From Spirulinaceae cyanobacterium SM2_1_0 (lineage in GTDB: Bacteria > Cyanobacteriota > Cyanobacteriia > Cyanobacteriales > Spirulinaceae), in NCBI GenBank assembly GCA_012031265.1, contig JAAUTY010000021.1:1-64000 (forward strand): DNA of 64,000 nt, read 5' to 3'. Positions 7,808 through 44,432 of this stretch are shown one piece after another. How positions within the stretch are numbered: position 1 is the stretch's first letter; the number at the start of each line of letters is the position of its first letter. Made by a program: the position numbers and the translations under genes. Below the pieces are notes generated by a model that was not told where the DNA came from, did not search any database, and saw nothing but the letters and a program-made list of their open reading frames with translations.

Positions 7808-8021
7808 TGTTCCGACGGCTTATCCGGCTAAATCTCGGCCCAGCTTGGCAACCCCAGCGCCTGCTGGAAGCGCACGGTGAGGTCGAGAATGTCGTCTCGG
7901 CAAGTTAACCTTTTGTTATCAACGACCGAGGCGCGCCAGGGTGCAGATCAGCCCGCAGCACACGAGTCGCTAGCCGGTTAAAAATGGCTGAACGAGCCGT
8001 GGCTTCCTCGCTTAGCTCCGG

Positions 8022-25453: not shown

Positions 25454-27196
25454 TCAAGGCGCGACCGATAGCGAGGAGGTTTTCGGCAGACGTGGGGGCG
25501 GGGACAAGGATTTGCGCCCCAGCAGCAAATAGGTCTGCATATAGCCCTTACCCTTGATTCGCACCAGTCCGCGCCGCTGCCAGTCGTAGTCGCGGTAGAG
25601 GTGCTTGTAGCTGGCGTGGGTGGCTTGGATCGCGCCGACTAGACCGTGCGACTCCATGCGGCTCGCGGTATTCACCGTGTCACCCCAGAGGTCGTAGATG
25701 AACTTGCGACGACCGATGACCCCGGCGATCGCTGGGCCGCTGTGCATGCCCAGTCGCAGGCGCAGCGGTTGTTGCTCAGAGTCAGTGAACTGGGCGATCA
25801 CGGCCTGCATATCCAGGGCCATCTCCGCTACCGCGCGGGCGTGGTCAGGTCGGGGTTCGGGCAGACCGCCGACGACCATGTAGGCATCGCCAATCGTTTT
25901 GATCTTCTCTAGCCCGTGGCAGTCGGCGAGGGAGTCGAATTCAGAAAAAATATCGTTGAGCAAGATCACCAACTCCGTCGGTGAGAGTCGCTCTGAGAGC
26001 CGTGTGAAGTCCACGATGTCGGCAAACAGCACCGTCGTTTCGCTGAAGTTGTCGGCGATCGTCGCTGGCCCTTGCTTGAGGCGTTCGGCGACTGGCGCGG
26101 GCAGGACATTGAGCAGCAGGCGTTCTGACTTTTCTTTTTCCTGACTCAGGGACTCGGCGATCGCCTCGCGCTCGGCGACCACCGCCGCCAGCGTCAGCGA
26201 GGTCAGGGCAAAAGTGCAAATGTAGGCTTGCAGCGAAATGAAGCTGGCATCCCCCCCTAGCCCATTGGCAAACGGCCCGCGCCCATTGAGCAAGCCCCAG
26301 GTGGCGGCGCTGGTGATCACGAGCACCGTCAGCGCCACACTTGCCCGCCCAAAGCGGAAGGCCGCCCAGATCGCCAGCGGAAAGGGTAGATAGGCGAGGA
26401 GCAACGGCGTCGGCGAGATAAAGACCAGCCAGCTCACCACCAGGAGCAAACCCAACCACAGTAACCCTTCCAGCCACTGTCGCAGCGGCCAATGCGGCCA
26501 GCGTGGTTGGAGCATCAACAACAGGGGGGTCAGCGTGAGGATGCCGGTCGCATTGCCGATCCACCACTCCAACCAGAGGCGCTCGCTGCCCAGCCAGGGG
26601 ACGCCGAAGGCATAGTGCAGATTCAGCAGGCCGACGGTGGCGCTGACGGCTGAGCCGAACGCACCAGCCAAGACGATCAGCAGCCACACGTCCCGCAGGC
26701 GCGGCAGGTGCTTGCGGCAGCCGCTCTGTTCCAGCCAGACGGTTCCCAGCCAGATTTGCAGGCTGTTGTTGGCGGCGGCGATCGCGTTGTACTGCCAGCT
26801 GACATCGCTGGCGAAGGTGAGGGCGAATGTCCCCAGAGCGATCGCCGGCCAAAACCGCCGCCCCAGCAGCAACAGCGCTGCTTGGGCGAAACCCGCCGGA
26901 AACCAGAGCGGCCAGATGCTCACCGTATTGTTCTGGATCGGGATCGCTAGAACTAGGTGCGTGATCAAGGCATAGGCGATCGCCAGCGACAGGAGGGTGA
27001 AACTGTCGCGTCCTCGGCGTCGCCAGAACTGGGACTGTCGAATGTGACGGGGCCAGTGCTGACTCAAGGTCGCAAATCTCTGTAAAAGCGGGGATTGCTG
27101 CACGCGCGCTCTGCCCTTCCCTTGCCTCTCCAAGTATAGGCGAGACCCCCAGCCCCAGCTTGCGCGCTTTGGCGGCAAGACTGTAGCATTCAACAC
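25454..27196 (-). CDS. MASE1-domain membrane adenylate cyclase
   Basis: A 580-residue integral membrane cyclase. A basic N-terminus (about 1-65) leads into a MASE1 sensory domain with about eight membrane segments (ISLAIAYALITHLVL-like first helix, WPLWFPAGFAQAALLLLG, then WWIGNATGILTLTPLLLML, to about residue 350). A class III cyclase domain follows (about 375-575). Metal aspartates are in VLFADIVDFTRL and TIGDAYMVVGG; Lys in EKIKTIGDA and Asp in YDLWGDTVNTASRMES specify ATP. It is closely related to the catalytic domain at 5741-7807 but has a membrane rather than soluble sensor. It is divergent from the guanidine riboswitch; the start codon lies about 23 bases from that transcript's likely -10 element. 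Confidence 0.9.
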   Translation of the reverse strand: MLNATVLPPKRASWGWGSRLYLERQGKGRARVQQSPLLQRFATLSQHWPRHIRQSQFWRRRGRDSFTLLSLAIAYALITHLVLAIPIQNNTVSIWPLWFPAGFAQAALLLLGRRFWPAIALGTFALTFASDVSWQYNAIAAANNSLQIWLGTVWLEQSGCRKHLPRLRDVWLLIVLAGAFGSAVSATVGLLNLHYAFGVPWLGSERLWLEWWIGNATGILTLTPLLLMLQPRWPHWPLRQWLEGLLWLGLLLVVSWLVFISPTPLLLAYLPFPLAIWAAFRFGRASVALTVLVITSAATWGLLNGRGPFANGLGGDASFISLQAYICTFALTSLTLAAVVAEREAIAESLSQEKEKSERLLLNVLPAPVAERLKQGPATIADNFSETTVLFADIVDFTRLSERLSPTELVILLNDIFSEFDSLADCHGLEKIKTIGDAYMVVGGLPEPRPDHARAVAEMALDMQAVIAQFTDSEQQPLRLRLGMHSGPAIAGVIGRRKFIYDLWGDTVNTASRMESHGLVGAIQATHASYKHLYRDYDWQRRGLVRIKGKGYMQTYLLLGRKSLSPPPRLPKTSSLSVAP

Positions 27197-27283: not shown

Positions 27284-27428
27284 GCGAGGCACAGTCCAGA
27301 TTAAAATTTGTGCCTCTAGGGTTCCGGCTGGCAGTCTGCGAGCGCCTGGTCCGAGAGAGGCGAGCCAGCCCTGAAGGTGAAATAGTCGCTGAGGTGCAGG
27401 TTACACGGCGGGACAAAAGCCCGGGAGG
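27284..27428 (+). promoter_or_regulatory. Guanidine-I (ykkC) riboswitch
   Basis: A hairpin, GAGGCACA (27286-27293) with TGTGCCTC (27309-27316), is followed at once by the conserved TAGGGTTCCG, then CTGGTCCGAGAGAG and ACACGGCGGGACAAAAGC with CCGGGAG. These are the invariant blocks of the ykkC class I guanidine aptamer, in the correct order and spacing. The downstream genes encode guanidine hydrolase, its nickel chaperones and an importer, exactly the regulon known for this class. The aptamer 3' strand AAGCCCGG (27417-27424) can instead pair with CCGGGCTT (27461-27468), giving a mutually exclusive fold. No T tract follows that alternative hairpin, so translational control or a non-canonical mechanism is possible. 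Confidence 0.93.
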
Positions 27429-27508
27429 AAGCAATGGTTGCAGAACTGTTTGCCGCACTTCCGGGCTTAAAACGTTTGACCGCTAATTATTTCATCCAGG
27501 AAAGCGCC

Positions 27509-28702
27509 ATGACCGATTCACTGCCCTTTCAGCCGCCGATCCCCGACGCCAATGGTCACTTCAGCGAGGCCCAGCGCGCCCTCGAACGCGAGCGCCAATT
27601 GCCTCTGACCGGCTGGCAACAGGAGACCGAGCGGGGGTTGGAACTAGGATTGGAAGCAGCGACGAGCATTCGCGATCGCACGATTCCCACCTTTTCGCGC
27701 GGCGAACTCCCTCACTACGCCGGCATCAACACCTTCATGAAAGCGCCTTACCTGGAAGATGTGCGGCAGGTCGGCAACTATGATGTGGCGATCGTCGGCG
27801 TGCCCCACGACTCCGGCACGACTTATCGCCCCGGCACGCGCTTCGGCCCCCAGGGCATCCGCCGCATCTCGGCCCTCTACACGCCCTACAACTTCGAGCT
27901 GGGCGTCGATCTGCGCGAGCAAATCACGCTCTGCGATGTCGGCGATATTTTCACGATTCCCGCCAATAACGAGAAGTCCTTTGACCAAATTTCCAAGGGC
28001 ATCGCTCACATTTTTGAGTCTGGGGCCTTGCCCATCGTCCTCGGCGGGGACCATTCGATCGGCTTCCCGACTGTGCGTGGCGTCTGTCGGCATCTGGGCG
28101 ATCGCCGCATCGGTATTATCCACTTCGACCGCCATGTCGATACCCAGGAAACTGACCTTGACGAGCGGATGCACACTTGCCCCTGGTTCCACGCGACGAA
28201 TCTCAAAAATGCCCCGGCACGCAATCTCGTGCAACTCGGCATCGGCGGTTGGCAGGTGCCGCGCCAAGGTGTGAAAGTCTGCCGCGATCGCGCCAGCAAC
28301 ATTCTCACCGTCACCGACATCACCGAGATGGGCCTCGATGCCGCCGCCGAGTTCGCAATCGAGCGCGCCACCGACGGCACCGACTGCGTATGGCTCAGTT
28401 TCGACATTGACTGCATCGATGCCGGTTTTGTCCCCGGTACCGGCTGGCCTGAACCCGGCGGCCTGCTCCCCCGCGAAGCCCTGGGCCTGCTCGCCCGCAT
28501 TGTCCAAAAAGTCCCCGTCTGCGGTCTGGAAGTCGTCGAGGTCTCGCCGCCCTACGACGTCAGCGACATCACAGCACTGATGGCGACCCGCGTCATCTGC
28601 GACACACTGGCGCATCTGGTGCTCTCCAACCAACTGCCACGCGCTGAAAAACCCGGCTATATTCACCCCGAAGCCGAACCGGAAACGGTGGCTTGGACTT
28701 AG
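27509..28702 (+). CDS. gdmH: Nickel-dependent guanidine hydrolase (ureohydrolase family)
   Basis: A 397-residue arginase/agmatinase-fold enzyme matching the Synechocystis Sll1077 guanidinase group, which hydrolyses guanidine to urea and ammonium. Metal-ligand motifs are GGDHSIGFPT, HFDRHVDTQETDLDERMH with the following TCPWFH typical of this clade, and SFDIDCIDAGFVPGTGWPEP. The N-terminal extension before the core is also typical. The ATG at 27509 has AGGAAAG at 27498-27504. An in-frame ATG at 27434 has a strong GGAGG five bases upstream, inside the riboswitch, and would add 25 residues; both remain possible. Dedicated HypA/HypB genes follow, consistent with nickel loading. An agmatinase assignment is less likely given the riboswitch. 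Confidence 0.93.
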   Translation: MTDSLPFQPPIPDANGHFSEAQRALERERQLPLTGWQQETERGLELGLEAATSIRDRTIPTFSRGELPHYAGINTFMKAPYLEDVRQVGNYDVAIVGVPHDSGTTYRPGTRFGPQGIRRISALYTPYNFELGVDLREQITLCDVGDIFTIPANNEKSFDQISKGIAHIFESGALPIVLGGDHSIGFPTVRGVCRHLGDRRIGIIHFDRHVDTQETDLDERMHTCPWFHATNLKNAPARNLVQLGIGGWQVPRQGVKVCRDRASNILTVTDITEMGLDAAAEFAIERATDGTDCVWLSFDIDCIDAGFVPGTGWPEPGGLLPREALGLLARIVQKVPVCGLEVVEVSPPYDVSDITALMATRVICDTLAHLVLSNQLPRAEKPGYIHPEAEPETVAWT

Positions 28703-28757: not shown

Positions 28758-29153
28758 ATGCACGAAGTTGACATGACCAAGGCTTTGATTCAAACCCTCC
28801 AAGACTGGTGGCAAGCGCAACCGGACATGCCCGAAATTCGCGCCGTTCACCTCACGATCGGGCAGTTTACCTGTGTCGAACCCGCCAGCTTGCAATTCGC
28901 GTTTGCGGCTCAGACTCAGGACACGGAGTTGGCGGGGGTCGCCTTGCGGATTCATGAGACGTCGCTGATCGCCTACTGCCACTCTTGCCAGCAGGAATAT
29001 CGTCCCGCGATTGGGCAACAGTACGCCTGCCCGACCTGTCATGCGCCCCTGGACGACATTCGCTCCGGTCGCGAACTCAAGATCGACCACATCGAATACC
29101 GCCAACCCGCGTCTGTGGCTCGCGAATCGTCCAGGCCTGTATCACCCAGTTGA
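28758..29153 (+). CDS. hypA: HypA-type nickel chaperone for guanidine hydrolase
   Basis: A 131-residue HypA homologue beginning [10 protein letters not shown], where the first His and following Glu form the nickel site of the family. The zinc domain has CHSC and CPTC pairs (about residues 75-95). HypA normally delivers nickel to [NiFe] hydrogenase, but this copy sits between gdmH and a hypB, with no hydrogenase genes in the window. In Synechocystis the equivalent pair is reported to activate the guanidine hydrolase. It lies 55 bases after gdmH, on the same strand. The tail ([11 protein letters not shown]) is slightly longer than in many HypAs. Confidence 0.93.
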
Positions 29154-29170
29154 GAGGAAGTTTCAGAACC

Positions 29171-29953
29171 ATGCACCAAACCTTTAGCGCTGCGCTCGAG
29201 ATGAATCTGCTCCACGCGAATCAAACCGGAGCCGACCACAATCGCGCCCATTTTGATCAATGGGGCATCACCTGTTTGAACATCATGAGCAGCCCTGGCG
29301 CGGGCAAGACGGTGTTGCTAGAACGCACACTGACGGCGCTGCAACCGGAGCTGGCGATCGCCGTCATCGAGGGCGACATGACCACCGAGCTAGATGCCGA
29401 ACGCCTGCGCCGCTCTGGCAGTCCGGTGCTGGCGATCAATACCGGCCGCGCCTGTCATCTAGACGCCCAGATGGTCGCGGGGAGCCTGCACGTCCTGGCG
29501 ACGCAGTATCAACCCCAAAGCTTTGACCTCGTGCTCGTGGAAAATGTCGGCAACCTGGTCTGTCCGGCAGAATTTGAAGTCGGCGAGCACGCCAAGGTGG
29601 CGCTGCTGAGCCTGACCGAAGGCGAGGACAAGCCGCTGAAGTATCCGATTATGTTTCGCGAGGCCGACTGTGTGTTGCTGACGAAGCTCGATCTCGCGCC
29701 ACACCTGGATCTCGACCTCAACCAGGTCATCGCCAACGTCCGCCAGGTGAATGCCCAGGCCACGATCCTGCCCCTGTCTGGCAAAACGGGGGTGGGGATG
29801 GACGCTTGGTATGACTGGGTGCGATCGCAAGTTCAGGCCAACTCTGCGGGCGCATCTCCGTGTTACAGCCCTCACCCTAAATCCCTCTCCCAGAGCGGGA
29901 GAGGGACTTCTAACTCCCCTTCTCCCGGCTTGGGAGAAGGGGTCGGGGGATGA
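29171..29953 (+). CDS. hypB: HypB-type nickel-insertion GTPase for guanidine hydrolase
   Basis: A 260-residue GTPase. The P-loop [16 protein letters not shown] is near residue 38; [15 protein letters not shown] holds the switch I Asp; [18 protein letters not shown] contains the Cys/His nickel site at the dimer interface; and [12 protein letters not shown] provides the guanine motif. The N-terminus ([20 protein letters not shown]) has no His-rich metal store. The ATG at 29171 follows GAGAGGAAG by about a dozen bases and the hypA stop by 17 bases. The last 27 or so residues are encoded by a palindromic repeat (29869-29955) that also supplies the stop codon, so the natural C-terminus was probably around [11 protein letters not shown]. 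Confidence 0.93.
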
Positions 29954-29955
29954 GG
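29869..29955. repeat. Palindromic extragenic repeat fused to the hypB 3' end
   Basis: Two hairpins, CCCTCTCCC/GGGAGAGGG and CCCCTTCTCCC/GGGAGAAGGGG, are framed by outer ends CCTCACCC and GGGGATGAGG. This layout is a common cyanobacterial extragenic repeat. The hypB frame reads through it and stops at TGA inside GGATGAGG. The interior resembles the core of the family B repeats at 32094 and 37992. Confidence 0.75.
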
Positions 29956-30060
29956 GTAATGGCGACGCTAGAGCGGGATGCCTCCTACACCCTACGCCAT
30001 CCCTAGCAACCGCACCCTTGATTTTTCCCTGTTCACCCGATTGCCGTTTACATACCGTTG

Positions 30061-31113
30061 ATGACAATGAAATTTCGCCGCTTGATTTCCTTTTGCGCCC
30101 TTTTTGTCGCCAGCTTGTGGCTGATCGCCAGTTGCAACCAAGCGCCAGATACGGCAGGAACGACCGACACTACAGCCAGTGCCGACAGCGATGCGCCGCC
30201 GCTGGTGCTGGGCTACAGCAACTGGGCGGGCTGGTGGCCTTGGGCGATCGCCGAAGAGGAGGGGCTATTTGAAGCGAATGATGCCAATGTCGAACTGCGC
30301 TGGTTCGATGGTTATCTGGAATCCCTGCAAGCCCTCGCCGCCGGTCAGATCGACGCCAACTCCCAAACCCTCAACGATACGATCGCCTTCACCATCGACT
30401 CGGTGGAGCCGCAAGTCGTCGTCCTCGTCAATGACAACTCGGCCGGAAACGATAAGATCATCGTTTCGGAAGAAATCAATACCATCGAGGATTTGCGCGG
30501 CAAGCAAGTGGCGCTGGAGGAAGGGCTGGTCGATGACTTCTTGCTCACTCTGGCGCTTGAAGATAATGGCATGTCCCGTGAAGACGTTGAAATCGTCAAC
30601 CTGGAAACCGGTGCCGCCGCCGCCGCCTTCGCCTCGGAGCAGGTGGATGCGGTCGGGGCCTTCCCGCCCTTCTGGCTCACCGCCCTGGAACGAGAAGGCA
30701 GCAAGGAATTGCTCAGCTCGGCAGAATACCCCGGCGCGATTCCAGATCTCTTGGTCGTCAGTCAGTCGGTGATCGAGGAGCGCCCCGACCAAGTGCAGGC
30801 GCTGGTCAATACCTGGTTCGATGTCCGCCAGTTCATGGCTGACAATCCGGAGCGGGCCGACGAGATCATGGCCGATCGGGCGGATGTTTCGGTCGAGGAG
30901 TTTCAGCAGTTCAAGGAAGGAACCCGCTTCTTTACGATCGAGGACAACCTCGAAGCCTTCAGCGAGGGTGAGGGGATGCAGCATATGCCCTACGCCGCCG
31001 AGCGGATGACGGAGTTCATGCTGGAGGTGGGCTTGATCGAGGCAGAACCAGAGCTGGAAGGGATCTTGGATGACCGCTTCGTCCAAGCCTATGCCGAAAG
31101 TCAGGAGAGCTAG
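30061..31113 (+). CDS. Guanidine ABC importer, substrate-binding lipoprotein
   Basis: A 350-residue NMT1/SsuA-like binding protein. A lipoprotein signal peptide ends in a lipobox, LIASCNQ, so the mature N-terminal Cys would anchor it to the outer face of the inner membrane. A Thr/Asp-rich linker precedes the domain, which begins LVLGYSNWAGWWPWAIAEE, with aromatic residues suited to a cationic ligand, and continues with FDGYLESLQALAAGQIDANS. Equivalent genes follow gdmH-hypA-hypB in Synechocystis, where the transporter is under the same riboswitch. Guanidine as ligand is inferred from this context. The ATG at 30061 is preferred to the TTG just before it. The TAG stop is part of a 111 bp repeat end. 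Confidence 0.88.
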   Translation: MTMKFRRLISFCALFVASLWLIASCNQAPDTAGTTDTTASADSDAPPLVLGYSNWAGWWPWAIAEEEGLFEANDANVELRWFDGYLESLQALAAGQIDANSQTLNDTIAFTIDSVEPQVVVLVNDNSAGNDKIIVSEEINTIEDLRGKQVALEEGLVDDFLLTLALEDNGMSREDVEIVNLETGAAAAAFASEQVDAVGAFPPFWLTALEREGSKELLSSAEYPGAIPDLLVVSQSVIEERPDQVQALVNTWFDVRQFMADNPERADEIMADRADVSVEEFQQFKEGTRFFTIEDNLEAFSEGEGMQHMPYAAERMTEFMLEVGLIEAEPELEGILDDRFVQAYAESQES

Positions 31114-31220
31114 TCCCGCTATGCGGAGTTCTGAGTTCTAAGTTTTGAGTTCTGAGTGCCTGTAATCCGAGAATCCTGGGGATTTTGAACGGGATTCTTA
31201 TGGCTGCCGTCTTGGACGAC
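31110..31220 (-). repeat. 111 bp dispersed repeat (family A), copy 2
   Basis: Reverse-orientation copy starting CTAGTCCCGCTATGCGG, whose TAG is the stop codon of the binding-protein gene. The far end is degraded: CCGCCGTCTTG is followed by GACGAC instead of TACTAG. It occupies the gap between the binding-protein and permease genes, inside the importer operon. Confidence 0.8.
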
Positions 31221-31257
31221 AACCCCGGGCGATCGCCCCAGATTCACCTCGCGAGGA

Positions 31258-32070
31258 ATGGAGTCAATGCCAAAAACAAAGAGCTTGCCCCCGACAGTCT
31301 TCTGGCGGTTAGCGGAGGACATTCCCCGACCGCTGTCCTGGACGCTGCTGACGCTCTCGATCCTTGTGCCCTTTTGCCTCTGGTGGCTGGCGGCGATCGC
31401 CCTCAACTCCCGTTTCTTACCCGCCCCGCCCGCTGTGCTCACAGCGATCATCGGTCTCTGGCAAGATGGCCTGCTGCTCCAAGATGCCACCGCTAGCTTT
31501 CTGCGGGTGACGGCTGGGTTTTTGCTCGGTGCGCTCCTCGCCGTGCCCTTGGGCATTGGCATGGGAGCCTTTGCGAGCATCCGCGCCCTGGCCGAACCGG
31601 CGATCGGCATTCTGCGCTATATGCCCGCCCCAGCCTTCATCCCGCTGCTGATCCTCTATCTCGGCATTGATGAAGCGCCAAAGATTACGCTCATTTTCAT
31701 CGGCACGCTGTTTTTCAACACGCTGATGATTATGGATGCAGTCAAGTTTGTCCCCAAGGATTTGATCGAGACAACCTATACCTTGGGGGGCGATCGCCGC
31801 CAAGTGCTGACTCAGGTGATCGTGCCTCACGCGATTCCCAGCATCATTGACGCCTTCCGCATCAACATCGCCGCCGGTTGGAATCTGGTCGTGGTCGCGG
31901 AACTCGTCGCCGCCGAAGTTGGACTCGGCAAACGCATCATCATCGCCCAAAAGTTTCTCCGCACCGATGATATTTTCGCCTGTCTGCTGATTCTTGGTCT
32001 CATCGGTTTTGCGCTCGATCTCGGCTTCCGCGCCCTCTTGTACTGGAGCTGCCGCTGGACTTTTGATTAG
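31258..32070 (+). CDS. Guanidine ABC importer, permease
   Basis: A 270-residue SsuC/NrtB-type inner-membrane permease with about six membrane segments. The first is LLTLSILVPFCLWWLAAIAL; others include VTAGFLLGALLAVPLGIGMG and FACLLILGLIGFALDLGF. The cytoplasmic EAA-type loop, which contacts the ATPase, is near ETTYTLGGDRRQVLTQVIVP with the following HAIPSI (about 180-205). Met at 31258 or 31267 may be the start. It is the partner of the binding protein upstream and of the ATPase at 38180. In this genome the ATPase is separated from it by about 6 kb, including an antisense kinase gene. Substrate assignment rests on context. Confidence 0.88.
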   Translation: MESMPKTKSLPPTVFWRLAEDIPRPLSWTLLTLSILVPFCLWWLAAIALNSRFLPAPPAVLTAIIGLWQDGLLLQDATASFLRVTAGFLLGALLAVPLGIGMGAFASIRALAEPAIGILRYMPAPAFIPLLILYLGIDEAPKITLIFIGTLFFNTLMIMDAVKFVPKDLIETTYTLGGDRRQVLTQVIVPHAIPSIIDAFRINIAAGWNLVVVAELVAAEVGLGKRIIIAQKFLRTDDIFACLLILGLIGFALDLGFRALLYWSCRWTFD

Positions 32071-32093
32071 CCGCTGCTGGTGAATTGACATCT

Positions 32094-32250
32094 CATACCA
32101 GATCCTGCCTGTGGAACCCAAGAATTGTATCCCTCATCCTCAGCCCTGCTCCCAAGCCGGAAGCAGGGAGCCAGAAGCCCTCTCCTCGCTTGGGAGCGGG
32201 TTGGGTGAGGGTTTTGATTTTCGGGGCATAGATACTGGATTTAGTATGAC
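32094..32250 (+). repeat. Dispersed repeat (family B), left copy
   Basis: Starts CATACCAGATCCTGCCTG and ends near GATACTGGATTTAGTATGAC; the outer ends form imperfect inverted repeats. The interior CTCCCAAGCCGG and GGTGAGGGTTTTGATTTT blocks match the right copy at 37992-38144 in the same orientation. Together the two copies bracket the 32317-37746 kinase gene. Confidence 0.8.
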
Positions 32251-32316
32251 ACCAATCCATATCGTGAACCCCAAAAATTGCCCCATCGGGAGGGTTTCAA
32301 ACCCTTTCCTACCGTC

Positions 32317-35300
32317 TCAACCCATCACGCCAGCCAAAGGAAGTTGAATGATGAAGGTGGTTCCTATACCGAGGGTGGAATGCACCATCAGCTTGCCGCC
32401 GTGTTTTTCTGCGACAATCTGGCGGGCGATCGCCAACCCCAGTCCCGTCCCTTTACCCACCGCTTTGGTGGTAAACGACGCCTCAAAAATGCGTGCCTGT
32501 GTCTCGGCATCAATACCCGCGCCATTGTCTGCGATCTCGATCTGCACCTGGTCGCTGACAACCCCTGTTCGCACCGTAATCCGCTGAGGATTGTCTTTGA
32601 GGTCGGCGAACGAACGCTTCTGCGCCGCTTCATCAAACATATCGACCGCATTCGCCAGGATGTTCATAAACACCTGATTGAGCTGACCGGGAAAACAGAG
32701 GACTTCTGGCAGATTGTCATAATCGCGGTTGATTTCAATCGCCGGACGCTGTTCGTTGGCCTTCAGGCGATATTTCAGAATCAGCAGCGTGCTGTCCAGC
32801 CCGGCGTGCAGATCGCTGGCGACTTGGCAATCAGCGTCAGCGCGCGAGAAGATGCGGAGGCTGGTGCTGATCCCTTTGATGCGATCGCAACCCAACTGCA
32901 TCGAATCCAACTGCTTGGGCAGATCTTCGAGCAGAAAATCAACCTCAAGCTCCTCAAGCGTTTCCTCAATCACTGCACCCGGAGACGGAAACTGCTCTTG
33001 GTAAAGCTGTAAACAGGTCAAAATATCTTTGATAGAATTGTCAACCTCTATTAGATTGCTGGTGATGAAGCCGAGTGGATTATTGATCTCATGCGCCACA
33101 CCGGCAACCAGATTGCCCAGAGATGCCATCTTCTCACTTTGAACGACTTGCAGTTGGGAGCGCTCGAGCTGCTGGGCATAATCACGGGCTTTTTGGTAGA
33201 GCTGCGCATTTTCCAGTGAAATCGCCGCCTGAGTGCTGAGGAAATTCAGCACAGCCAGCCGCTCCTGATCAAAAACATCGCGTGCCACCCGGTTTTCCAG
33301 ATAAACGATCCCCCGCAAGTGACCCCGCTCGACCAGCGGCAGACAGAGGGCGCTCTGCGGCATCTGTTCAATCACATAGCGGTCGATGACGGGGAGGTCG
33401 GTGTCGGGAGCCGCGATCCAGACGGTCTCGCTGCGTTTGACATACTGGAGCAAGCGGACGGGCAGATCCGTCCGGTCAGCGAGGGGGATGGACAGCAGTT
33501 CCGTGCTCTCTAGGGTGGCGATCGCCCGCAACTGCAATTCGCCCGTCTCGTCGAGCAGGAGCAATGCGCCGCGATCGCCCCCCGAATTCTGCAAAATAAT
33601 CCGCGTCAGTTGATTCAATAGCTCATCGAGTTCGATAGCGCTGACGAGCACCTGCGAAGCCTGAAGCACCGCCGCGAAATCCAGAGCCAAGTTGGTGCTG
33701 CTGCTGTTGGAATCAGACGCCTCAGTTGAAGCCGCGTGAAAGTTCAGAGTCGGAACAGTAGCGGCAGCCAAAGTCTCCCAAGGATTGAGCGCGGGCACAG
33801 TGGGCTGCAAAATCGGCTGTAGCAGGCCGGGGTAGTTGCGTTCGAGCTGATCGGTTTTTGCCTTAGCACCCCAGCGAGCGTAGCAATAGTAGGCGGCTTG
33901 GAGGTAGCTAGCCGCGACTTTCTCTTTGCCCCAGTCGAGATAGAATTTTGCCGCTAACTCATTCGCTAAGCCTGCTTCCTGGAGGTATTCATTAGCTTGT
34001 GCCGCTGCGATCGCTTGGTCATACAAATCTATTGCCTCCGCTTTGTTACCGAGGACTCGGTAGCGCTCGGCTGCGACCAATTGCCATTTGTGCGCGTGGT
34101 TCATCGGGGCATGACGTACCCAGTGCTGCTGCAATTTCGTTTGGTTTTCCTCAACCCGTTGCAGAGCGACGGCACGCTCCTCCGGTGACGACGGCAACGA
34201 CGCTAAAGCCGCCAGTGAGTCATAGAAATAAAACGCTGGTTCGCCAACCGTGCTAGCACCCGCCGCGCAATATTGCTGGGCTTCAGCCGCATGGCTTTGG
34301 GCCTGTTCGATGTCCCCAAACCAGTAGCCCAGCATGAGTTTGTAGAGATGGAAAACGAATAATCCGTAAAAATCACCCATCGATTGGAGTCGCCGCAAAA
34401 CCTCCCCCTCTTGCATGGACTCGTCAGAGAGCAGACGGCGATCGGCAGCCAAACCGAGTAAATTCAGCGCCGATTGCCAGTAGATTTGCATCCAGTTTGC
34501 AATCACCAACTGGTTGAGTTTCACGATTCCCTGGTAATGCCTGTCAGTGCTCTCTTCTAAGGCTGCCAGAGGCTGGCTACACCAAAAGGCATTGAAACAG
34601 AAGATATGGGCTGTGTAGCCAGCATACTCCAGGTTGCCCGACTCTAGAGCAGTCGTATACCCGGCTTGCAATAATGGCAGTGTCTCCTGAGTATGAAATT
34701 GGCGATGTAAGATGGATAATCCCATCACCGCCAAGACTTCAGGCTGGATGACTTTGACCTCAAGTTTTTCGGCGACCTTGACCGCCACCTGACCAAACTG
34801 AATCGCCGTCTCAACATCTTGCAAGACGTTGCATAAAATAAAGCCATAGCAAACATAAGCCGCGGCCGAGGTCGGTGCATTCCCGTATTCGATGGAGAGT
34901 TTGACCGGGATCGCACCTAGGAGCGGCAATAAAGGCGATCGCGAGATGAAGGCGGCGGCAAAAATACTCGTCGTAATCTGGAGGATGGCGATTTTCTCCC
35001 GATCGGTCATGACCGGGAGATTGACTAAATCAGCGATGGGGCGATCAGCGACGAGTGCTTTGACTTCTTGTATCGCCGCCTGGATATCAGCCGCAGTCGG
35101 TGCGGTCGGCAAGGTCAGCCCCAGTTGTTCCAGAATTTCTAGGGCGATCGCGATGCCTTCAGTCGGTTGGTTATGCGAGATCGTGAAGAGAATCCGCAAC
35201 CGATAGACCTGAACCTGATCAAGGAGAGAGCGGGCTTGTTGGATCACCGTAGTGACGAACTGCTCCAGCGCCTCGCCATCGCCACAGTAGGATGCCATTT

Positions 35301-37746
35301 CTGCCGCTAGCTCGTGCAGCCTGAGCGCTAAATCATACTGTTGTTGCCAAGCATCGCTCGCGAGCAGTGATAGGCCGACGGCGATGTAATTCCGCGCCGC
35401 TTGATAGGCCGTCGCGGCTTTGGCTTTGCGGGCAGCGGTCAGATTCAGTTGGGCGAGTTCCTGGTGTTCGGCCGCGTTCGTGATCAGAGCAATGCCGTGG
35501 TTCAAGTGACCGACCAGTTCAAAAATGTGTTCGTCCTGAGCTGATGACGCGGCCTGTTGCCGCAGCAGTTGCCCGATGTGGTAGTGAGTGGCGGTTTTCT
35601 CGTCGTCGGGAATGAGCGCATAGGCCGCCTGCTGCACGCGGTCGTGCAGGAAGCGGTAGGTCACGGTGATGTGCTCATGCTCAGGCAGCCCACTGTCCTG
35701 GAAGAACTTGTACGTCTCGCTTTCCGGCACCACTAGACCTTCTTGGAGGGCGGGCCAGAGGTCAGCGGCGATCGCATTGGCGGGGCGATCGCAGACCACC
35801 GTCAGCGTCTCCAGCTCGAATCGGTTGCCCAGACAAGCCGCCAGTTGCAAAATTGCCTGAGTCTCAGTGGGCAGCCGTCGCAGCCGCGTCACCATAAACT
35901 CAACCACATCGTCCGTCAGGGCCGCCTGCCGGACGGCCGATAGGTCGCATTGCCAGTAGCCAACCGCCACATCGAAGCGGATGTGCCCATCCTCATGCAG
36001 CCCCTGTAGGAATTGGGTACTGAAGAAGGGATTGCCTTTCGTCTTTTGCCCCATCAACTGCGCCAGTGGCTGCGCCGCTGCCGTTGGACATCGCAAGGTA
36101 TCGGCTACGAGCTGCATGACATCGGCCTCGCTCAACGGAGCCAGCGTCAGCCGCTCGAGGCACACACCCTGCTGTTCGATTGCCGCCAGTGTCAACATCA
36201 AGGGATGCGCTGGAAATACTTCGTTATCCCGGTAAGCACCCAGCACGAGCAAGTAGCCTCCGGCTGACTCATCTAGCAGCCGCTGCAACAAGTTGAGTGA
36301 GGCAGCATCCGCCCACTGCAAATCATCCAGAAAAATGACCAGCGGCTGCTCCGGAGTGGCAAAGACCTGCACAAACTTGCCAAAGAGCAAATTGAAGCGG
36401 TTCTGTGCAGCACTGCCTTCTAGCTCGGTTACCGCAGGCTGTGTGCCAATGATCTGCTCCAGTTCTGGGATCATCTCGATGATCACTTGCCCGCTTTCAC
36501 CCAGAGCCGCCGCAATTTTCGCCCGCCAAGCCGCCAGCTTGTCGTCGGTTTCGCCGAGTAGTTGCTGGACCAGACGGCGGAAGGCCTGCATGAAAGCCGA
36601 AAAAGGCGTACTACGGTTGAACTGGTCAAACTTGCCCTTGATGAAGCAGCCGCGTTGTCGGGTGATCGGTTTGTGGACTTCGTTGATCACCGCCGTTTTG
36701 CCAATGCCAGACGAGCCAGCTACTAACAATAGCTCGCTGGCACCCGCCGCAACGCGATCAAAGGCGGCGAGGAGGGCTTCGACTTCAGCTTGGCGGCCGT
36801 AGAGTTTTTCGGGGATCAGGAAGCGATCGCTCCGGTCTTGCGTGGCCAACTCAAAGGGTTCGATACGACGACTGGTCTGCCATTGCTGCCAGCAGCGTTC
36901 CAGGTCATGCTGCAAACCGAGGGCACTTTGGTAGCGATCTTCAGGGTTTTTCGCCATCAGCTTGTCCACGAGGTCGGCAACAACCGCCGGAACTCCAGGC
37001 TGCAAGTGATCAACGCGGGGCGGCTGTTGGGCGAGGTGGCAATGTACCAGAGCCAGCGGCTCCTCTGTGGGAAACGGGAGTTGACCGGTGAGCAGCTCAA
37101 ATAGGGTGACGCCGAGGGCGTAGAAGTCAGCCCGGTAGTCGAGGCCCCGATTCATGCGGCCAGTCTGTTCCGGAGCGAGGTAGGCGAGGGTGCCTTCGAG
37201 ATCGCTGAGCGGTTTCAGCGCTAGGGTTTCTTTCGGGAGCAGCGAGGCGATGCTGAAATCGATCAGCTTGATTTGCCGACTCTCCGGCTGGATCAAGATG
37301 TTGGCGGGTTTGATGTCTTTGTGAATAATGCGGTTTTGGTGCAGGCTGTGCAGCGTGGTCACGATTTGGCTGGCAAATTCGAGGACTTCTAGCCAAGGGA
37401 GTGCCTGCCTCTGTGCGTAGTCGCGCAGTGAGATGCCGCCGCAGTCCTCCATGACCAGGGCATAGCTGTTACCATAGGGTTCGAGGCTGTAGTAGCACGG
37501 AATGCCAGGAAGGCTGAGGTTTTTGGCGATCGCATACTGATTATGAAACCGCAGCAACTCGTTGAAGCGGGGGTGCTCATTGGCTAGCAATTTAACGATG
37601 ACGGGTGCATCGCGACCCTGGGTTGTTGCCTGACTGTCATGCTCAGGGTCAGTGGCCGGAACCGCTCGGTAAACAGCGGTTGTGGTGCCGGAGTAGAGCT
37701 GTTCGACAAAGCGGTAGCCGGGTAGCGGGCGGTTGGAGGTTGGCAT
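32317..37746 (-). CDS. Trifunctional Ser/Thr kinase, AAA ATPase and histidine kinase
   Basis: An 1809-residue protein of a class frequent in cyanobacteria. A protein kinase domain (about 8-285) has the catalytic loop IIHKDIKPANILI (HKD for HRD) and LIDFSIASL in place of DFG; the glycine-rich loop is weak (LYSGTTTAVYRA). An AAA/NACHT-like ATPase follows (about 315-590) with Walker A LVAGSSGIGKTAVINEV and Walker B-like LVIFLDDLQWAD. A helical TPR-like region (about 650-1300), a GAF domain (about 1370-1520), a HisKA with LVAGVAHEINNPLGFI and an HATPase (IEIADNGAGIDAETQ, KGTGLGLAIARQIV) complete it. The Met at 37746 is chosen because kinase homology begins just after. It is antisense to, and splits, the importer operon. 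Confidence 0.9.
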   Translation of the reverse strand: MPTSNRPLPGYRFVEQLYSGTTTAVYRAVPATDPEHDSQATTQGRDAPVIVKLLANEHPRFNELLRFHNQYAIAKNLSLPGIPCYYSLEPYGNSYALVMEDCGGISLRDYAQRQALPWLEVLEFASQIVTTLHSLHQNRIIHKDIKPANILIQPESRQIKLIDFSIASLLPKETLALKPLSDLEGTLAYLAPEQTGRMNRGLDYRADFYALGVTLFELLTGQLPFPTEEPLALVHCHLAQQPPRVDHLQPGVPAVVADLVDKLMAKNPEDRYQSALGLQHDLERCWQQWQTSRRIEPFELATQDRSDRFLIPEKLYGRQAEVEALLAAFDRVAAGASELLLVAGSSGIGKTAVINEVHKPITRQRGCFIKGKFDQFNRSTPFSAFMQAFRRLVQQLLGETDDKLAAWRAKIAAALGESGQVIIEMIPELEQIIGTQPAVTELEGSAAQNRFNLLFGKFVQVFATPEQPLVIFLDDLQWADAASLNLLQRLLDESAGGYLLVLGAYRDNEVFPAHPLMLTLAAIEQQGVCLERLTLAPLSEADVMQLVADTLRCPTAAAQPLAQLMGQKTKGNPFFSTQFLQGLHEDGHIRFDVAVGYWQCDLSAVRQAALTDDVVEFMVTRLRRLPTETQAILQLAACLGNRFELETLTVVCDRPANAIAADLWPALQEGLVVPESETYKFFQDSGLPEHEHITVTYRFLHDRVQQAAYALIPDDEKTATHYHIGQLLRQQAASSAQDEHIFELVGHLNHGIALITNAAEHQELAQLNLTAARKAKAATAYQAARNYIAVGLSLLASDAWQQQYDLALRLHELAAEMASYCGDGEALEQFVTTVIQQARSLLDQVQVYRLRILFTISHNQPTEGIAIALEILEQLGLTLPTAPTAADIQAAIQEVKALVADRPIADLVNLPVMTDREKIAILQITTSIFAAAFISRSPLLPLLGAIPVKLSIEYGNAPTSAAAYVCYGFILCNVLQDVETAIQFGQVAVKVAEKLEVKVIQPEVLAVMGLSILHRQFHTQETLPLLQAGYTTALESGNLEYAGYTAHIFCFNAFWCSQPLAALEESTDRHYQGIVKLNQLVIANWMQIYWQSALNLLGLAADRRLLSDESMQEGEVLRRLQSMGDFYGLFVFHLYKLMLGYWFGDIEQAQSHAAEAQQYCAAGASTVGEPAFYFYDSLAALASLPSSPEERAVALQRVEENQTKLQQHWVRHAPMNHAHKWQLVAAERYRVLGNKAEAIDLYDQAIAAAQANEYLQEAGLANELAAKFYLDWGKEKVAASYLQAAYYCYARWGAKAKTDQLERNYPGLLQPILQPTVPALNPWETLAAATVPTLNFHAASTEASDSNSSSTNLALDFAAVLQASQVLVSAIELDELLNQLTRIILQNSGGDRGALLLLDETGELQLRAIATLESTELLSIPLADRTDLPVRLLQYVKRSETVWIAAPDTDLPVIDRYVIEQMPQSALCLPLVERGHLRGIVYLENRVARDVFDQERLAVLNFLSTQAAISLENAQLYQKARDYAQQLERSQLQVVQSEKMASLGNLVAGVAHEINNPLGFITSNLIEVDNSIKDILTCLQLYQEQFPSPGAVIEETLEELEVDFLLEDLPKQLDSMQLGCDRIKGISTSLRIFSRADADCQVASDLHAGLDSTLLILKYRLKANEQRPAIEINRDYDNLPEVLCFPGQLNQVFMNILANAVDMFDEAAQKRSFADLKDNPQRITVRTGVVSDQVQIEIADNGAGIDAETQARIFEASFTTKAVGKGTGLGLAIARQIVAEKHGGKLMVHSTLGIGTTFIIQLPLAGVMG

Positions 37747-37991
37747 GGGATTTGGCTTTTGGTATCGGATACGGACGCCGTACATGGAGGAGGTGACGCG
37801 CGCGATCACGAGTTGCTCATTGACGGCGGGACACTGTTGGGCATTGACTGGCAATATCGGCTTTGACTTGGGCGTATGGCTGTCTGCCCAGGGTGCTGAA
37901 GTGATGCACTACTAACATTCGCATCAACAATATTTAGGATAAATTTAAGTTGTGAAAAACTTGTGAAGGCTACTGGCGATCGCGATCACGG

Positions 37992-38144
37992 CATAACACC
38001 AGATCCTGTCTGTGAAACCCAAGAATTATATCTCTCATCCCCAGCCCGGCTCCCAAGCCGGGAGCCAGAAGCCTTATCGCCGCTTAGGAGAAGGTCGGGA
38101 GAGGGTTTTGATTTTTGGGGCATAGATACCAGACTGGGTATCAC
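37992..38144 (+). repeat. Dispersed repeat (family B), right copy
   Basis: Starts CATAACACCAGATCCTGTC and ends near GATACCAGACTGGGTATCAC. It shares with the left copy, in the same orientation, ACCCAAGAATT, CTCCCAAGCCGG and GAGGGTTTTGATTTT plus GGGGCATAGATAC. It lies between the start of the kinase gene and the ATPase gene. The rest of the 37747-38179 gap shows no gene. Confidence 0.8.
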
Positions 38145-38179
38145 CTCCCCTCGCTATCCTGCGCTCTGAATACAAAACG

Positions 38180-38968
38180 ATGCACCTCGAAATCCGCAAT
38201 TTATTCAAACATTTCCCAACTCCACAAGGCCCATTATTGGTCTTGAAAAATATCAATCTGCACGTCGAGTCCGGCGAGTTCGTCTGCGTTGTAGGGGCTT
38301 CGGGATCGGGCAAATCGACCCTGCTGCGGCTGGTTGCCGGTCTTGACTTACCCAGCTCCGGCTCAATTGCCGTAGACGGGGCGACAGTGACCGGGCCGGG
38401 AGCTGATCGTGGCATGGTTTTCCAGCGCTACACGCTCTACCCCTGGCTGACGGTGCAAAAAAATGTTGAGTTTGGATTGAAACTACAAGGCGTCGCGGCC
38501 GCCGCTCGCCGAGAGCAAGCTTCCTATTTTCTCGAAGTCGTCGGCCTGACTGAGTTTGCCACCACGCTCCCCAAGGAACTGTCCGGCGGCATGAAACAAC
38601 GGGTGGCGATCGCCCGTGCCCTGGCCTGCCAACCGAAGATTTTGCTCATGGACGAGCCATTTGGGGCGCTGGACGTGCAGACCAAGGAGACAATGCAGCA
38701 GTTTTTGCTGGAACTCTGGCAGCGTACCCACTGCACGATTTTGCAGATCACCCACGATGTCGAGGAAGCAGTTTTTCTGGCGCAACGCATCTACGCCCTG
38801 AGTGCGCGGCCGGGCGAGATCGAGTGTGAGTATCAGATTGAATTGCCGGGCGATCGCGACTATCGCCTCAAGCGCCAGAGCCAATTCCAAAGCTATGTTG
38901 CTGAAATCATGGATCTGTTGCGCGGTCAGACCAATGTGGAAGCGACGGCGATCGCACTGGTCTCCTAA
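38180..38968 (+). CDS. Guanidine ABC importer, ATPase
   Basis: A 262-residue SsuB/NrtD-type ATPase. Walker A is [13 protein letters not shown] (about residue 40), the Q-loop is MVFQRYTLYPWL, the signature is [16 protein letters not shown], Walker B is ILLMDEPFGALD, and the switch His is in QITHDVEEAV. It pairs with the permease at 31258 and binding protein at 30061, whose closest family relatives are encoded contiguously with such ATPases. Here it is stranded behind the antisense kinase gene, so it needs its own promoter or read-through past about 6 kb; the right family B repeat ends 35 bases before its start. Confidence 0.9.
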   Translation: MHLEIRNLFKHFPTPQGPLLVLKNINLHVESGEFVCVVGASGSGKSTLLRLVAGLDLPSSGSIAVDGATVTGPGADRGMVFQRYTLYPWLTVQKNVEFGLKLQGVAAAARREQASYFLEVVGLTEFATTLPKELSGGMKQRVAIARALACQPKILLMDEPFGALDVQTKETMQQFLLELWQRTHCTILQITHDVEEAVFLAQRIYALSARPGEIECEYQIELPGDRDYRLKRQSQFQSYVAEIMDLLRGQTNVEATAIALVS

Positions 38969-39314: not shown

Positions 39315-39944
39315 TCATGAACAATTTTCAATTCTTAAAATTTGTTTTGCTGTCAAGCTGAATTCAGGGAAAGTAGCTGAGACAACAGTTTGGCTTCCCT
39401 GGAATAATTGAATTTCATACTCTCCATCCACTAATGTGCAAATGGAAAGGGTAGGTTGTTTTGGCTTTCCAATATGCCGAATACCCCCTAATCCAGCATA
39501 GTCTGCAATCCAATACTCAGGAATTCCCAGGGCTGCATAGTCTTCAACTTTGCGGGCATAATCGTTCTGCCAATTACTACTGACGACTTCCGCCACAAAC
39601 TTGATTGAATCCCCCCTAGTTATAATTGATTGCTCCGACCAGAGCAGTTCGTTGACAAGCTCAGTGCGGTCAATAACTGCAACATCAGGCCGAAACGCAG
39701 TTGCACCAATATTGGAAGGACGAAGTAATCCCCGTTGGAGAACAAACCAAGGCAAACTTGCCTTGTCGATTTGAATGCAGGCTTTCGCGGTAATAAAGGC
39801 AGCAACCTCCTCGTGTTTGCCGGTTGGTTCCAAGTCAAACACCTCTCCGTCGATTAATTCATAACGATTATCGTCACCATAGAGAGCTAGAAACCCGTCA
39901 AAGCTCTGCTGTATCGGTCGATCAGTTGCAATTGCCATGGCCAT
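39315..39944 (-). CDS. Uma2 family (DUF820) putative endonuclease
   Basis: A 209-residue Uma2 protein of the PD-(D/E)XK nuclease fold, expanded in cyanobacteria. The family pattern is clear: RYELIDGEVFDLEPTGKHEE, then FRPDVAVIDRTEL with the catalytic Asp, KFVAEVVSSNWQNDYARKVE with Glu and downstream Lys, and YAALGIPEYWIADYAG. The C-terminus (LFQGSQTVVSATFPEFSLTA) is complete. Cellular function of the family is unknown. The gene is visibly more AT-rich than its neighbours, consistent with horizontal acquisition. A hairpin at 40021 lies just upstream of its start. Confidence 0.9.
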   Translation of the reverse strand: MAMAIATDRPIQQSFDGFLALYGDDNRYELIDGEVFDLEPTGKHEEVAAFITAKACIQIDKASLPWFVLQRGLLRPSNIGATAFRPDVAVIDRTELVNELLWSEQSIITRGDSIKFVAEVVSSNWQNDYARKVEDYAALGIPEYWIADYAGLGGIRHIGKPKQPTLSICTLVDGEYEIQLFQGSQTVVSATFPEFSLTAKQILRIENCS

Positions 39945-40049: not shown

Positions 40050-40083
40050 GCTTAGCTCGCATAACGGTGAAGTTGTGCGGCGG

Positions 40084-40194
40084 CTAGTACCGCTACGCGG
40101 AATTTTGAGTTCTGAGTTTTGAGTGATGAGTGCAGACAATACAGGCATCCTACGGCTCCTGAATGGGCATCTCATTTCCGCCGTCTTGTACTAG
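40084..40194 (-). repeat. 111 bp dispersed repeat (family A), copy 3
   Basis: Reverse-orientation copy with both ends intact: starts CTAGTACCGCTACGCGG and ends CCGCCGTCTTGTACTAG. Same length as the other three copies. It lies in a gene-free stretch. Confidence 0.85.
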
Positions 40195-42068: not shown

Positions 42069-44432
42069 TTATGGGTCTTCCGGAGCGATCGCCGCCGAAC
42101 CCGCTAAGGCATCAATAATCCTGTCGTAGCGAAAGTTATCCGCCCAACTGGCGATCTCCGTTACCGCAGCCGTCGCCTCGGCAGGTAATTCAGCTAGCAG
42201 GGTGTGGATGTCTTTGGCGCTGGCAGCAAAGCTGGCTTCCTCAAGCTGACTACGCCAAGCGTCGGGTTGTGCAGCAAGCAGCGTCGCAATATCTACCGTC
42301 GCTGTCACGGCTGTTGGTTCGGTCTCTGGCTCAGCCACCGCTGCCGGTTCCTGGTAGAGATACTCCACCCCGATGAAATGGTTGAGGCGCTCGAAAATCA
42401 TCTGTTCCTGGAATGGCTTGGTGACAAAATCGTCGCAGCCGGCCGCAATCACCGCATCGCGATCGCGCTCGAACACACTCGCCGTCAACGCGACAATCGG
42501 CGTGCGGGGGCGCTCCGGCTGCTCGGCTTCCTGGGCGCGGATGGCGCGGGTCGCCCCGAAGCCATCCAAAATCGGCATCTGCATATCCATCCAGATAAAA
42601 TGCGGCTGCCAGCTTTCCCAGGCTTCTACCCCCGCTTGTCCATCCGCCACGGCTTTGACCGCAAAGCCGAGCGGTTCGAGGAGTTCGATCAACAGTTGGC
42701 GATTTTCCCAGCGATCTTCGACGATCAGAATGCGATAGGTCGGCTGACCCGGCACGAGGCCGATCGCACGCGGTCGTTCGACGGCTTGTAGCGCATCACC
42801 CTGAGCCGCATAGACCGGGATCGTGAATTGAAAACAAGTCCCCTCGCCGACCCTGCTCTCAACGTGCAGCTCGCCTCCAAGCACATTGACAAACTGGCGG
42901 CTGATCGTCAGACCGAGGCCCGTCCCTTCGGTCGCCTGCTCCCCGGTTTCAGTTTGGTCAAAGGCGTTGAAGATGCGGGTCAGGTCGTCAGGGGCGATGC
43001 CTGGCCCGGTGTCCCGCACCGCGAAACGCAGATAGGAGCGATCCTGAGACGATTGGTCAACATCGGCCGCGACCTGTAATGCCACTTCCCCGCTCTCGGT
43101 GAATTTGATCGCGTTGTTGAGCAGGTTGATCAAAACCTGGCGCAGTTTTTTGGGGTCGGTGCGGAGGTAGCGGGGCAAGTTCGGCTCGGCATCGAAATAG
43201 AGAGCCAGTCCCTTGGCTTGCGCTTTGTAATACAGCATTCCCTTGAGCGTATCGAGCAGCTCAAAACAGTCAAAATCGCGCTCTTGCAAGCTGATTTTGC
43301 CCGCTTCGATCTTGGAGACATCGAGGACATCGTTGATCAACTGCAACAAGTGTTCGCCGCTGCGGTTGATGATGCGGATATGTTCGCTATGGCTGGCCAG
43401 AGTGTGGGTCTGGTGCAGCGCGAGATCCCGCTCCATCAGTTGCGCGAAGCCGAGGATGGCGTTGAGCGGTGTTCGCAGTTCGTGACTCATTTTGGCGAGA
43501 AAAGAGCCTTTGGCGCGGCTGGCTGCCTCGGCATTTTCCTTGGCTTGCTGGAGTTCAGCGCTGCGTTCTTGGACGCGCTCGATTAAATAGTTCAGCGAGA
43601 TGGCGAGTGAGCCAATTTCGTCAGCGGGGTTGACCGCCTCTAGGGAAACGCGCTGATTGAAGTCGCCATGACGAGCGGTGCGGCGGGCGACGTGGGTAAT
43701 GTAGCTGAGCGGGCGGCTGACGGTGCGGGTGACGCGGATCGCCACAAAACCGGCGATCGCCACTGCCAGCAAGCTACTCGCCACGATCAACCCTTTCTCA
43801 ATGCCCTGTGCCCGCTCGAGCTCGAGCGCGGCTTCACGGGCTTGGCGCTGGGCGCTGCCGAGCAGTTCCTCTAGCTCCAGGGCGAGAGCGTCGAAGTCGG
43901 TGCGGAAGTTGGAGCGATTCAGCGCTTGCAGTTGGCGACGGACGAGCGTATTGTCCCAGTCTGGTGGCAGTTGGGGGGGGATGAAGGCTTGGCTGCGCTG
44001 GGCATAGACCCCCAGTTTGCTGACATAGCCGTCGATAAACTCGGTGAATTGGTCAGGATCAGTCGCCAGCCAAGCGGGGTCGCTAGCCACAAACTCATCC
44101 AGGCGGCGCTGCAAGGCGCGAGTATTGGCAAGGCTTTTACGTAAGCGGTCTTCGCTGTCGCGCAGTTGATCGGGTTCGTCGAGGAGGGAGGGCAGCAATG
44201 CCCCGGCAAGCTGGGCGCGTTTGACTTCCCCTTTGAAATCGGCGAGCAATTGCGCCTGGATGCTGGCATCCGTCAGTTGCTGGATGCCCTGTCCTTGGTA
44301 ATAGTCGGCGATGAGCATCCCGGCGAGCGTACCAACGAAGCCAAAACCGATCGCCGCGCCGTAGCCGAGGGCGATTTTCTGGGCAATGCGGAGGGTGTGG
44401 AGACGCTGACGCCAGGTTTGCCAATACTGCAT
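42069..44432 (-). CDS. Membrane hybrid histidine kinase (HAMP-HisKA-HATPase-REC)
   Basis: A 787-residue kinase. Two membrane segments (about 23-45 and 213-235) enclose a helical periplasmic sensor of about 170 residues. A HAMP domain (about 235-290), HisKA (SHELRTPLNAILGFAQL, about 318), HATPase (NAIKFTESGEVALQV; DTGPGIAPDDLTRIF; EGTGLGLTISRQFV) and C-terminal receiver (about 565-690; IWMDMQMPILDG, FVTKPF) follow. The last 90 residues resemble those of the neighbouring kinase and may be a docking or degenerate transfer module. It sits between a paralogous kinase and a REC-GAF regulator, all on one strand with gaps of 96 and 64 bases, suggesting one operon and a phosphorelay. Confidence 0.92.
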   Translation of the reverse strand: MQYWQTWRQRLHTLRIAQKIALGYGAAIGFGFVGTLAGMLIADYYQGQGIQQLTDASIQAQLLADFKGEVKRAQLAGALLPSLLDEPDQLRDSEDRLRKSLANTRALQRRLDEFVASDPAWLATDPDQFTEFIDGYVSKLGVYAQRSQAFIPPQLPPDWDNTLVRRQLQALNRSNFRTDFDALALELEELLGSAQRQAREAALELERAQGIEKGLIVASSLLAVAIAGFVAIRVTRTVSRPLSYITHVARRTARHGDFNQRVSLEAVNPADEIGSLAISLNYLIERVQERSAELQQAKENAEAASRAKGSFLAKMSHELRTPLNAILGFAQLMERDLALHQTHTLASHSEHIRIINRSGEHLLQLINDVLDVSKIEAGKISLQERDFDCFELLDTLKGMLYYKAQAKGLALYFDAEPNLPRYLRTDPKKLRQVLINLLNNAIKFTESGEVALQVAADVDQSSQDRSYLRFAVRDTGPGIAPDDLTRIFNAFDQTETGEQATEGTGLGLTISRQFVNVLGGELHVESRVGEGTCFQFTIPVYAAQGDALQAVERPRAIGLVPGQPTYRILIVEDRWENRQLLIELLEPLGFAVKAVADGQAGVEAWESWQPHFIWMDMQMPILDGFGATRAIRAQEAEQPERPRTPIVALTASVFERDRDAVIAAGCDDFVTKPFQEQMIFERLNHFIGVEYLYQEPAAVAEPETEPTAVTATVDIATLLAAQPDAWRSQLEEASFAASAKDIHTLLAELPAEATAAVTEIASWADNFRYDRIIDALAGSAAIAPEDP

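Follow-up and report, generated by a model that had tools for sequence, protein, structure and literature searches.

How did the ATPase gene of an importer come to lie 6.1 kb from its permease gene, behind a gene that is read on the opposite strand? The question is raised by a guanidine operon in a 64-kb stretch of DNA from Spirulinaceae cyanobacterium SM2_1_0 (the whole stretch is referred to here as the window; the assembly comprises 149 contigs). A Guanidine-I riboswitch, the guanidine hydrolase-like gene gdmH, two nickel chaperone genes and the genes for the binding protein and permease of an ATP-binding cassette (ABC) importer follow one another on the plus strand, and the importer ATPase gene stands beyond an antisense gene for a large dual kinase. 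A preliminary description of this DNA had set the end of the permease gene at 32070, the start of the ATPase gene at 38180 and a minus-strand kinase gene in between, and the arrangement was found just so, with the kinase gene occupying 32317-37854. In relatives the contiguous order of permease and ATPase is the rule, and the kinase gene is the extra; on either side of it lies a copy of a repeat that resembles miniature inverted-repeat transposable elements (MITEs), and the two copies are related. The explanation favored here, with a probability of roughly 0.6, is a lineage-specific, backward insertion of an ordinary HstK-type kinase gene into the permease-ATPase spacer, mediated by the repeats, by which the ATPase would have been decoupled from the riboswitch. 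The locus reads as follows.

27305-27429, plus strand: Guanidine-I riboswitch aptamer, upstream of gdmH (Rfam RF00442, 82.4 bits against a threshold of 63, E 3.6e-13)
27434-28702, plus strand: gdmH, Ni-dependent guanidine hydrolase-like protein of the arginase family (Pfam Arginase, E 6.6e-76)
28758-29153, plus strand: hypA-type nickel chaperone, ghaA (TIGR00100, above cut-off)
28985-29953, plus strand: open reading frame containing the hypB-type nickel chaperone, ghaB (tblastn to the hypB region of relatives)
30058-31113, plus strand: importer substrate-binding protein, SsuA family (TIGR01728, 262.8 bits; cut-off 163.5)
31109-31217, plus strand: second dispersed repeat family, one copy in the spacer from binding protein to permease (42 or more genomic matches; of 287 candidates, 40 were scored)
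31258-32070, plus strand: importer permease (Pfam BPD_transp_1)
32094-32250, plus strand: left copy of the MITE-like dispersed repeat, homologous to the right copy
32317-37854, minus strand: HstK-type dual kinase (Pfam: Ser/Thr kinase, AAA_16, GAF and HATPase_c, with a long middle part between AAA_16 and GAF that matches nothing in Pfam)
37927-37956, minus strand: promoter-like pair for the kinase gene (overlapping pairs; a consensus match only)
37992-38144, plus strand: right copy of the MITE-like dispersed repeat, 35 bp upstream of the ATPase start
38180-38968, plus strand: importer ATPase, apart from the operon (Pfam ABC_tran)

The plus-strand order of gdmH, hypA, hypB, binding protein and permease fits a Guanidine-I GdmH operon, and the riboswitch is the sole Rfam match at the gathering threshold in the window. 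The gdmH product is 80-89% identical to those of the compared relatives, the permease is 76% identical to that of Planktothrix rubescens, and the binding protein may start at TTG 30058 or at ATG 30061. Where the locus departs from such an operon is in the place of the ATPase, which does not follow directly behind the permease. In Synechocystis sp. PCC 6803 (PMC10094980, PMC8390497), the guanidine operon sll1077-1082 consists of gdmH, ghaA, ghaB and an ABC importer. The window is alike in the class of riboswitch, in gene order up to the permease and in the possession of a homologous ATPase; it is unlike in that sll1080-1082 are given there as members of one operon, whereas here the permease and the ATPase are kept apart by two repeats and an antisense kinase gene of 5.5 kb.

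Permease and ATPase in related genomes

In all 40 relatives that were fetched, the permease gene is followed by the ATPase gene with no kinase gene in between. A larger sample of 195 genomes of the order, which includes these 40, gave 98 permease loci for comparison; at 97 of them the ATPase lies no more than 640 bp from the permease and on the same strand, with a median gap of 82 bp. This count takes in permease matches of at least 56% identity and leaves out the window's own; 39 permease rows at 40-48% identity were dropped, being taken as another transporter, and 85 of the 195 genomes had no match in the permease search (65 of these unlisted). One genome with an ATPase and no permease match (G160) stands outside the count, and one from the window's family (G196) was not part of the importer search. 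A second collection, which overlaps with the first, has the two genes contiguous at 75 of 80 loci, 3-635 bp apart; at four of the remaining five the permease match lies no more than 272 bp from the contig end, and the fifth is that of Spirulina sp. SIO3F2, a member of the window's family.

A gap of 640 bp or less leaves no room for a kinase gene between permease and ATPase, and a kinase at this position was seen in none of the compared relatives. Neither the same kinase in distant relatives nor unrelated repeats, the two findings that the preliminary description had named as fatal to it, turned up. The permease-ATPase split is derived, and the proposal of the preliminary description that a kinase gene had entered between the importer genes is sustained by these counts. 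Outside the repeats, the spacer in the window amounts to 23 + 35 bp (58 bp), compared with about 35 bp in two contiguous members of the family. The importer was found in four genomes of the family (the window's, G052, G176 and that of SIO3F2, G195), and two of the four are split.

The splits of the window and of SIO3F2 look independent, because the tree of binding protein and permease rejects window, SIO3F2 and L074 as a clade (approximately unbiased test, p-AU 0.0009), and a shared ancestry of the two splits was dropped as an explanation. The clade was chosen after a first FastTree, and the test was run on a quick tree. In the binding protein and permease tree the window groups with Planktothrix, and SIO3F2 with two contiguous Spirulina-type genomes. 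The window's ATPase is 75% identical to those encoded right behind the permease in G126, G176, G190 and G052. It may well be the operon's own, since the ATPase tree, in which the window's position is poorly resolved, allows the grouping of window and Planktothrix (p-AU 0.33) that is found with the binding protein and permease. A foreign origin of the ATPase was considered and set aside: FastTree places it weakly beside L074 and SIO3F2 (0.607 and 0.728), and a more careful tree does not resolve its place.

The kinase gene

Three domains had been attributed to the kinase in the preliminary description, and the Ser/Thr kinase, AAA and histidine kinase parts are indeed present; the GAF domain and the long middle part come in addition. 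Counted from the first start codon the protein has 1845 residues. The true start may be the ATG at 37746, and most of the listed homologues align beginning at residue 19 to 54, partial ones later. Pkinase, GAF and HATPase_c score above the Pfam cut-offs, and HisKA scores below (20.9 versus 26.9 bits). The stretches HKDIKPAN, GSSGIGKT, HEINNP and GKGTGLGL in the kinase and ILLMDEP in the ATPase are of the kind found at catalytic sites, and by these stretches both genes look intact.

The HstK or cbSTKIII proteins of cyanobacteria (PMC2176072) carry an N-terminal Ser/Thr kinase and a C-terminal GAF and histidine kinase. The window's kinase joins Ser/Thr kinase, GAF and histidine kinase (with HEINNP) within one protein and has the same architecture; its sole oddity in this comparison is the antisense location within a metabolic operon. 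Genes of this type are widespread, with matches at an E value no higher than 1e-280 in 149 of the 195 genomes of the order, and the closest homologues found are 57-58% identical. The gene has a G+C content of 0.565 and 1.99 HIP1 sites per kb, close to the 0.589 and 2.14 of the window. A recent duplicate from within the same genome was rejected as its source, the best paralogue being merely 40% identical.

The surroundings of 21 HstK-type homologues were compared in 15 regions, 11 of them from the window's family and 4 from other families. Apart from a few scattered single families, blocks or single neighbors of the kinase genes recur only inside three same-genus pairs (G071/G088, G166/G109 and G141/G057), and no donor site could be proposed from the 15 regions. 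A homologue of one of the window genes at 42069-44432 and 44529-47039 lies beside a kinase gene of G137. Another shared family is that of the Uma2-type gene at 39315-39944, downstream of the ATPase, whose homologue near the G052 kinases is only 42% identical. The sole relatives of this gene in its own genome are 44% and 37% identical. Closer ones, of 74-77% identity, stand no more than 9 kb behind the guanidine permease at L153 (SIO3F2), at L090 (Aliterella, the same as L208) and at L147, where the copy is truncated by the contig end. Upstream of the riboswitch, a MASE1-nucleotide cyclase gene (25454-27196) lies on the opposite strand and reads away from it.

The kinase is most likely unrelated to guanidine. 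The preliminary description had suggested, as one of two alternatives, that it was recruited to nitrogen signalling, and recruitment to this or to the control of the importer finds some encouragement in the HstK paper, where expression of the Anabaena protein is reported to depend on the nitrogen source (PMC2176072), the one hint of a tie to nitrogen, and in the divergent promoter region at 37855-38179, which could be common to kinase and ATPase genes. Against it, the pairing of kinase and importer was seen in none of the compared relatives, and HstK-type genes are both common and, apart from the same-genus pairs, without conserved neighbors. Nor is there a nearby match to GTA-N8-TAC, the NtcA-type consensus: the window has three (22826, 23675 and 55198) where 1.81 are expected by chance, and control of the kinase/ATPase locus by NtcA was rejected. 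Recruitment of the kinase is held to be very unlikely, and this part of the preliminary description finds no direct support.

The bracketing repeats and transcription of the ATPase

That related repeats in the same orientation bracket the kinase gene had also been claimed, and alignment of the left and right copies demonstrates their homology, with blocks of 76 nucleotides at 87% and 90 nucleotides at 81% identity, and 84% across 150 aligned columns. They are members of a family that is dispersed through the genome, with no fewer than 41 matches (40 of 87 candidates being scored). In an alignment of 40 rows, representing 39 distinct copies, imperfect terminal inverted repeats near TGATnCCnAATCC and GGATTnAGTATG, judged by eye without statistics, surround a core that is palindromic; some of the copies have longer flanks in common, and no clear target-site duplication appears in the alignment. 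As a short (157 bp), non-coding element present in multiple copies, the repeat would belong to a MITE-like family. Small dispersed repeats of cyanobacterial genomes are short and palindromic and occur in tens of copies; of the present family, the 157-bp form was found in the window's genome, and two of the 12 other genomes of the family have weaker matches, mostly to the core. In the hypB reading frame, the stop codon and roughly 28 final residues are encoded by a partial reverse copy of this repeat (29869-29956). The second repeat family has further copies in the window at 13814-13922, 40083-40191 and 63358-63466.

A repeat-mediated insertion of the kinase gene is plausible. A repeat copy already present in the permease-ATPase spacer would have been the target of recombination or transposition. 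Besides itself, the best genomic match of the right copy is the left copy, at 150 bits compared with 114 for the next among 39 other listed matches, and the two form a sister pair with a support of 0.817 in a tree of 20 distinct full-length copies. The arrangement is like that of the TIME-COMPs (PMC13367494), in that a short non-coding element with ends in inverted repeat stands, in direct orientation, on both sides of a gene; that of the window is known from sequence at one locus and has no clear target duplication.

The left repeat also contains a terminator-like stem at 32183-32211 with the tail TTTTGATTTT. The fold of 32128-32224 has a free energy of -52.4 kcal/mol (z -4.33), and none of 200 shuffled sequences was as stable. 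Because so stable a fold stands directly before TTTTGATTTT, the riboswitch-led transcript probably stops at the left repeat, the hairpin and T-rich tract of which would act as a terminator of the guanidine-controlled transcript behind the permease. The ATPase would then be transcribed from a promoter of its own in or near 37855-38179, and the guanidine response would be kept by the binding protein and permease and lost by the motor ATPase. The preliminary description had the ATPase without a riboswitch leader, and the Rfam search of the window likewise detects no second Guanidine-I riboswitch upstream of it. To judge from these signals, the ATPase is probably cut off from the guanidine-sensing riboswitch.

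Several observations weigh against this explanation. The left copy is closer to a copy on contig C19 (165 bits) than to its partner (150 bits), and same-orientation neighbor pairs 1-8 kb apart are expected by chance at about 1.1 per genome with 41 randomly placed copies and at 4.8 with 87. Neither an empty site nor a donor site for the insertion was found, one genome of the genus being covered. The right repeat forms a weaker hairpin than the left and folds no better than shuffled sequences (38029-38115, -32.4 kcal/mol, z -1.29, 23 of 200 shuffles as stable), and terminator-like sites number 4 compared with 6.5 expected in shuffled sequences, a count that is not significant, as only the fold of the left repeat is. 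No plus-strand promoter-like site was detected in a scan from 37330 to the ATPase start. Finally, the ATPase tree and the binding protein and permease tree place the window differently, a difference that is not significant.

The first of these points bear on an alternative to which slightly less than an even chance is given, namely that the repeats are bystanders in a repeat-littered genome and that the kinase gene arrived in a different way, earlier or later than they did. Both dispersed families are numerous, repeats occupy three spacers of the operon region as well as the hypB end, and bracketing is unremarkable in itself, since same-orientation pairs are expected by chance; the nearest relative of the left copy, moreover, is not its partner. 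What speaks against mere bystanders is that the left copy leads the matches of the right copy by 36 bits, and that the repeats lie merely 23 and 35 bp from the adjoining importer genes. The earlier suggestion of entry by recombination between repeat copies stands as far as the close kinship of the pair is concerned; set against the dispersed nature of the family and the chance expectation, the route itself is no more than plausible.

A repeat-rich genome in 149 contigs also raises the prospect of an assembly artefact, in which contigs were misjoined at repeat copies. Some copies do lie near contig ends, and the right copy has a run of 40 identical bases in common with one other copy. The bracketing copies, however, share no identical run longer than 15 bases, the left copy shares at most 27 with any of 37 other distinct copies, and a misjoin would have had to set the kinase gene exactly between two ancestral neighbors, both correctly oriented. 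Such an artefact is regarded as extremely improbable.

Decoupling, for its part, has to be weighed against read-through, in which the ATPase would still be controlled by guanidine by way of a long transcript antisense to the kinase gene, which would also repress the kinase under guanidine. The importer genes share a strand, intrinsic terminators are frequently leaky, and the absence of a plus-strand promoter-like site directly upstream of the ATPase would fit such a transcript. It would have to pass the stable hairpin and T-rich tract behind the permease, 5.5 kb of antisense sequence and the second repeat, and it is considered unlikely. Insertion of the kinase gene with decoupling of the ATPase from the riboswitch is preferred.

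Departures of the ATPase in other genomes

The window is one of three ways in which the importer ATPase has left the operon. In Spirulina sp. SIO3F2 (also L153 and L220) the riboswitch, gdmH, hypA, hypB, binding protein and permease genes are kept together, and the importer ATPase, 72% identical to that of the window, is encoded on another contig between mtnA-like and dnaK-like genes (names given from reading the translations); no Guanidine-I riboswitch was found in the 19.9 kb searched near it. In G142 (L260), a single-contig genome from another family, riboswitch and operon are complete through the permease (7488-8279), and an importer ATPase of this type was not found; the nearest ATPases of the genome are 46%, 44% and 41% identical, and their surroundings look like those of nitrate importers, where one ATPase is joined to a binding-protein-like part and comes with its partner, and of sulfate importers. 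The link between permease and ATPase is broken in the window, relocated in SIO3F2 and absent in G142. A further genome, G160 (L259), has a 74%-identical importer ATPase at 7020-7763 with gdmH nearby on the opposite strand, and no binding protein or permease was recognized within the surrounding 12 kb.

It might be conjectured, doubtful as this is judged to be, that the importer ATPase has repeatedly become free of guanidine control since it serves other importers or can be replaced by their motors. Multitask ATPases of ABC importers are likewise free of the operon of one importer, and sharing is a conjecture for the guanidine importer. If it were true, insertion of the kinase gene would be one of the tolerated ways of arriving at an importer with two inputs, with binding protein and permease responsive to guanidine and the motor not.

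A literature search found no report naming a split guanidine operon, a PNAS 2025 study of guanidine regulation in cyanobacteria (PMC12704784) lying beyond its coverage. The locus shows an operon broken up by an ordinary kinase gene and is not a new kind of system. Together with the unlinked ATPase of SIO3F2 and the missing one of G142, it makes the ATPase appear a loosely held part of the operon. It is important to emphasize that the window would offer a natural experiment, in which one subunit of a transporter is detached from the riboswitch and the others are still under it. It opens the questions of whether ABC importers require co-expressed motors, and of whether dispersed repeats double as insertion targets and ready-made terminators.

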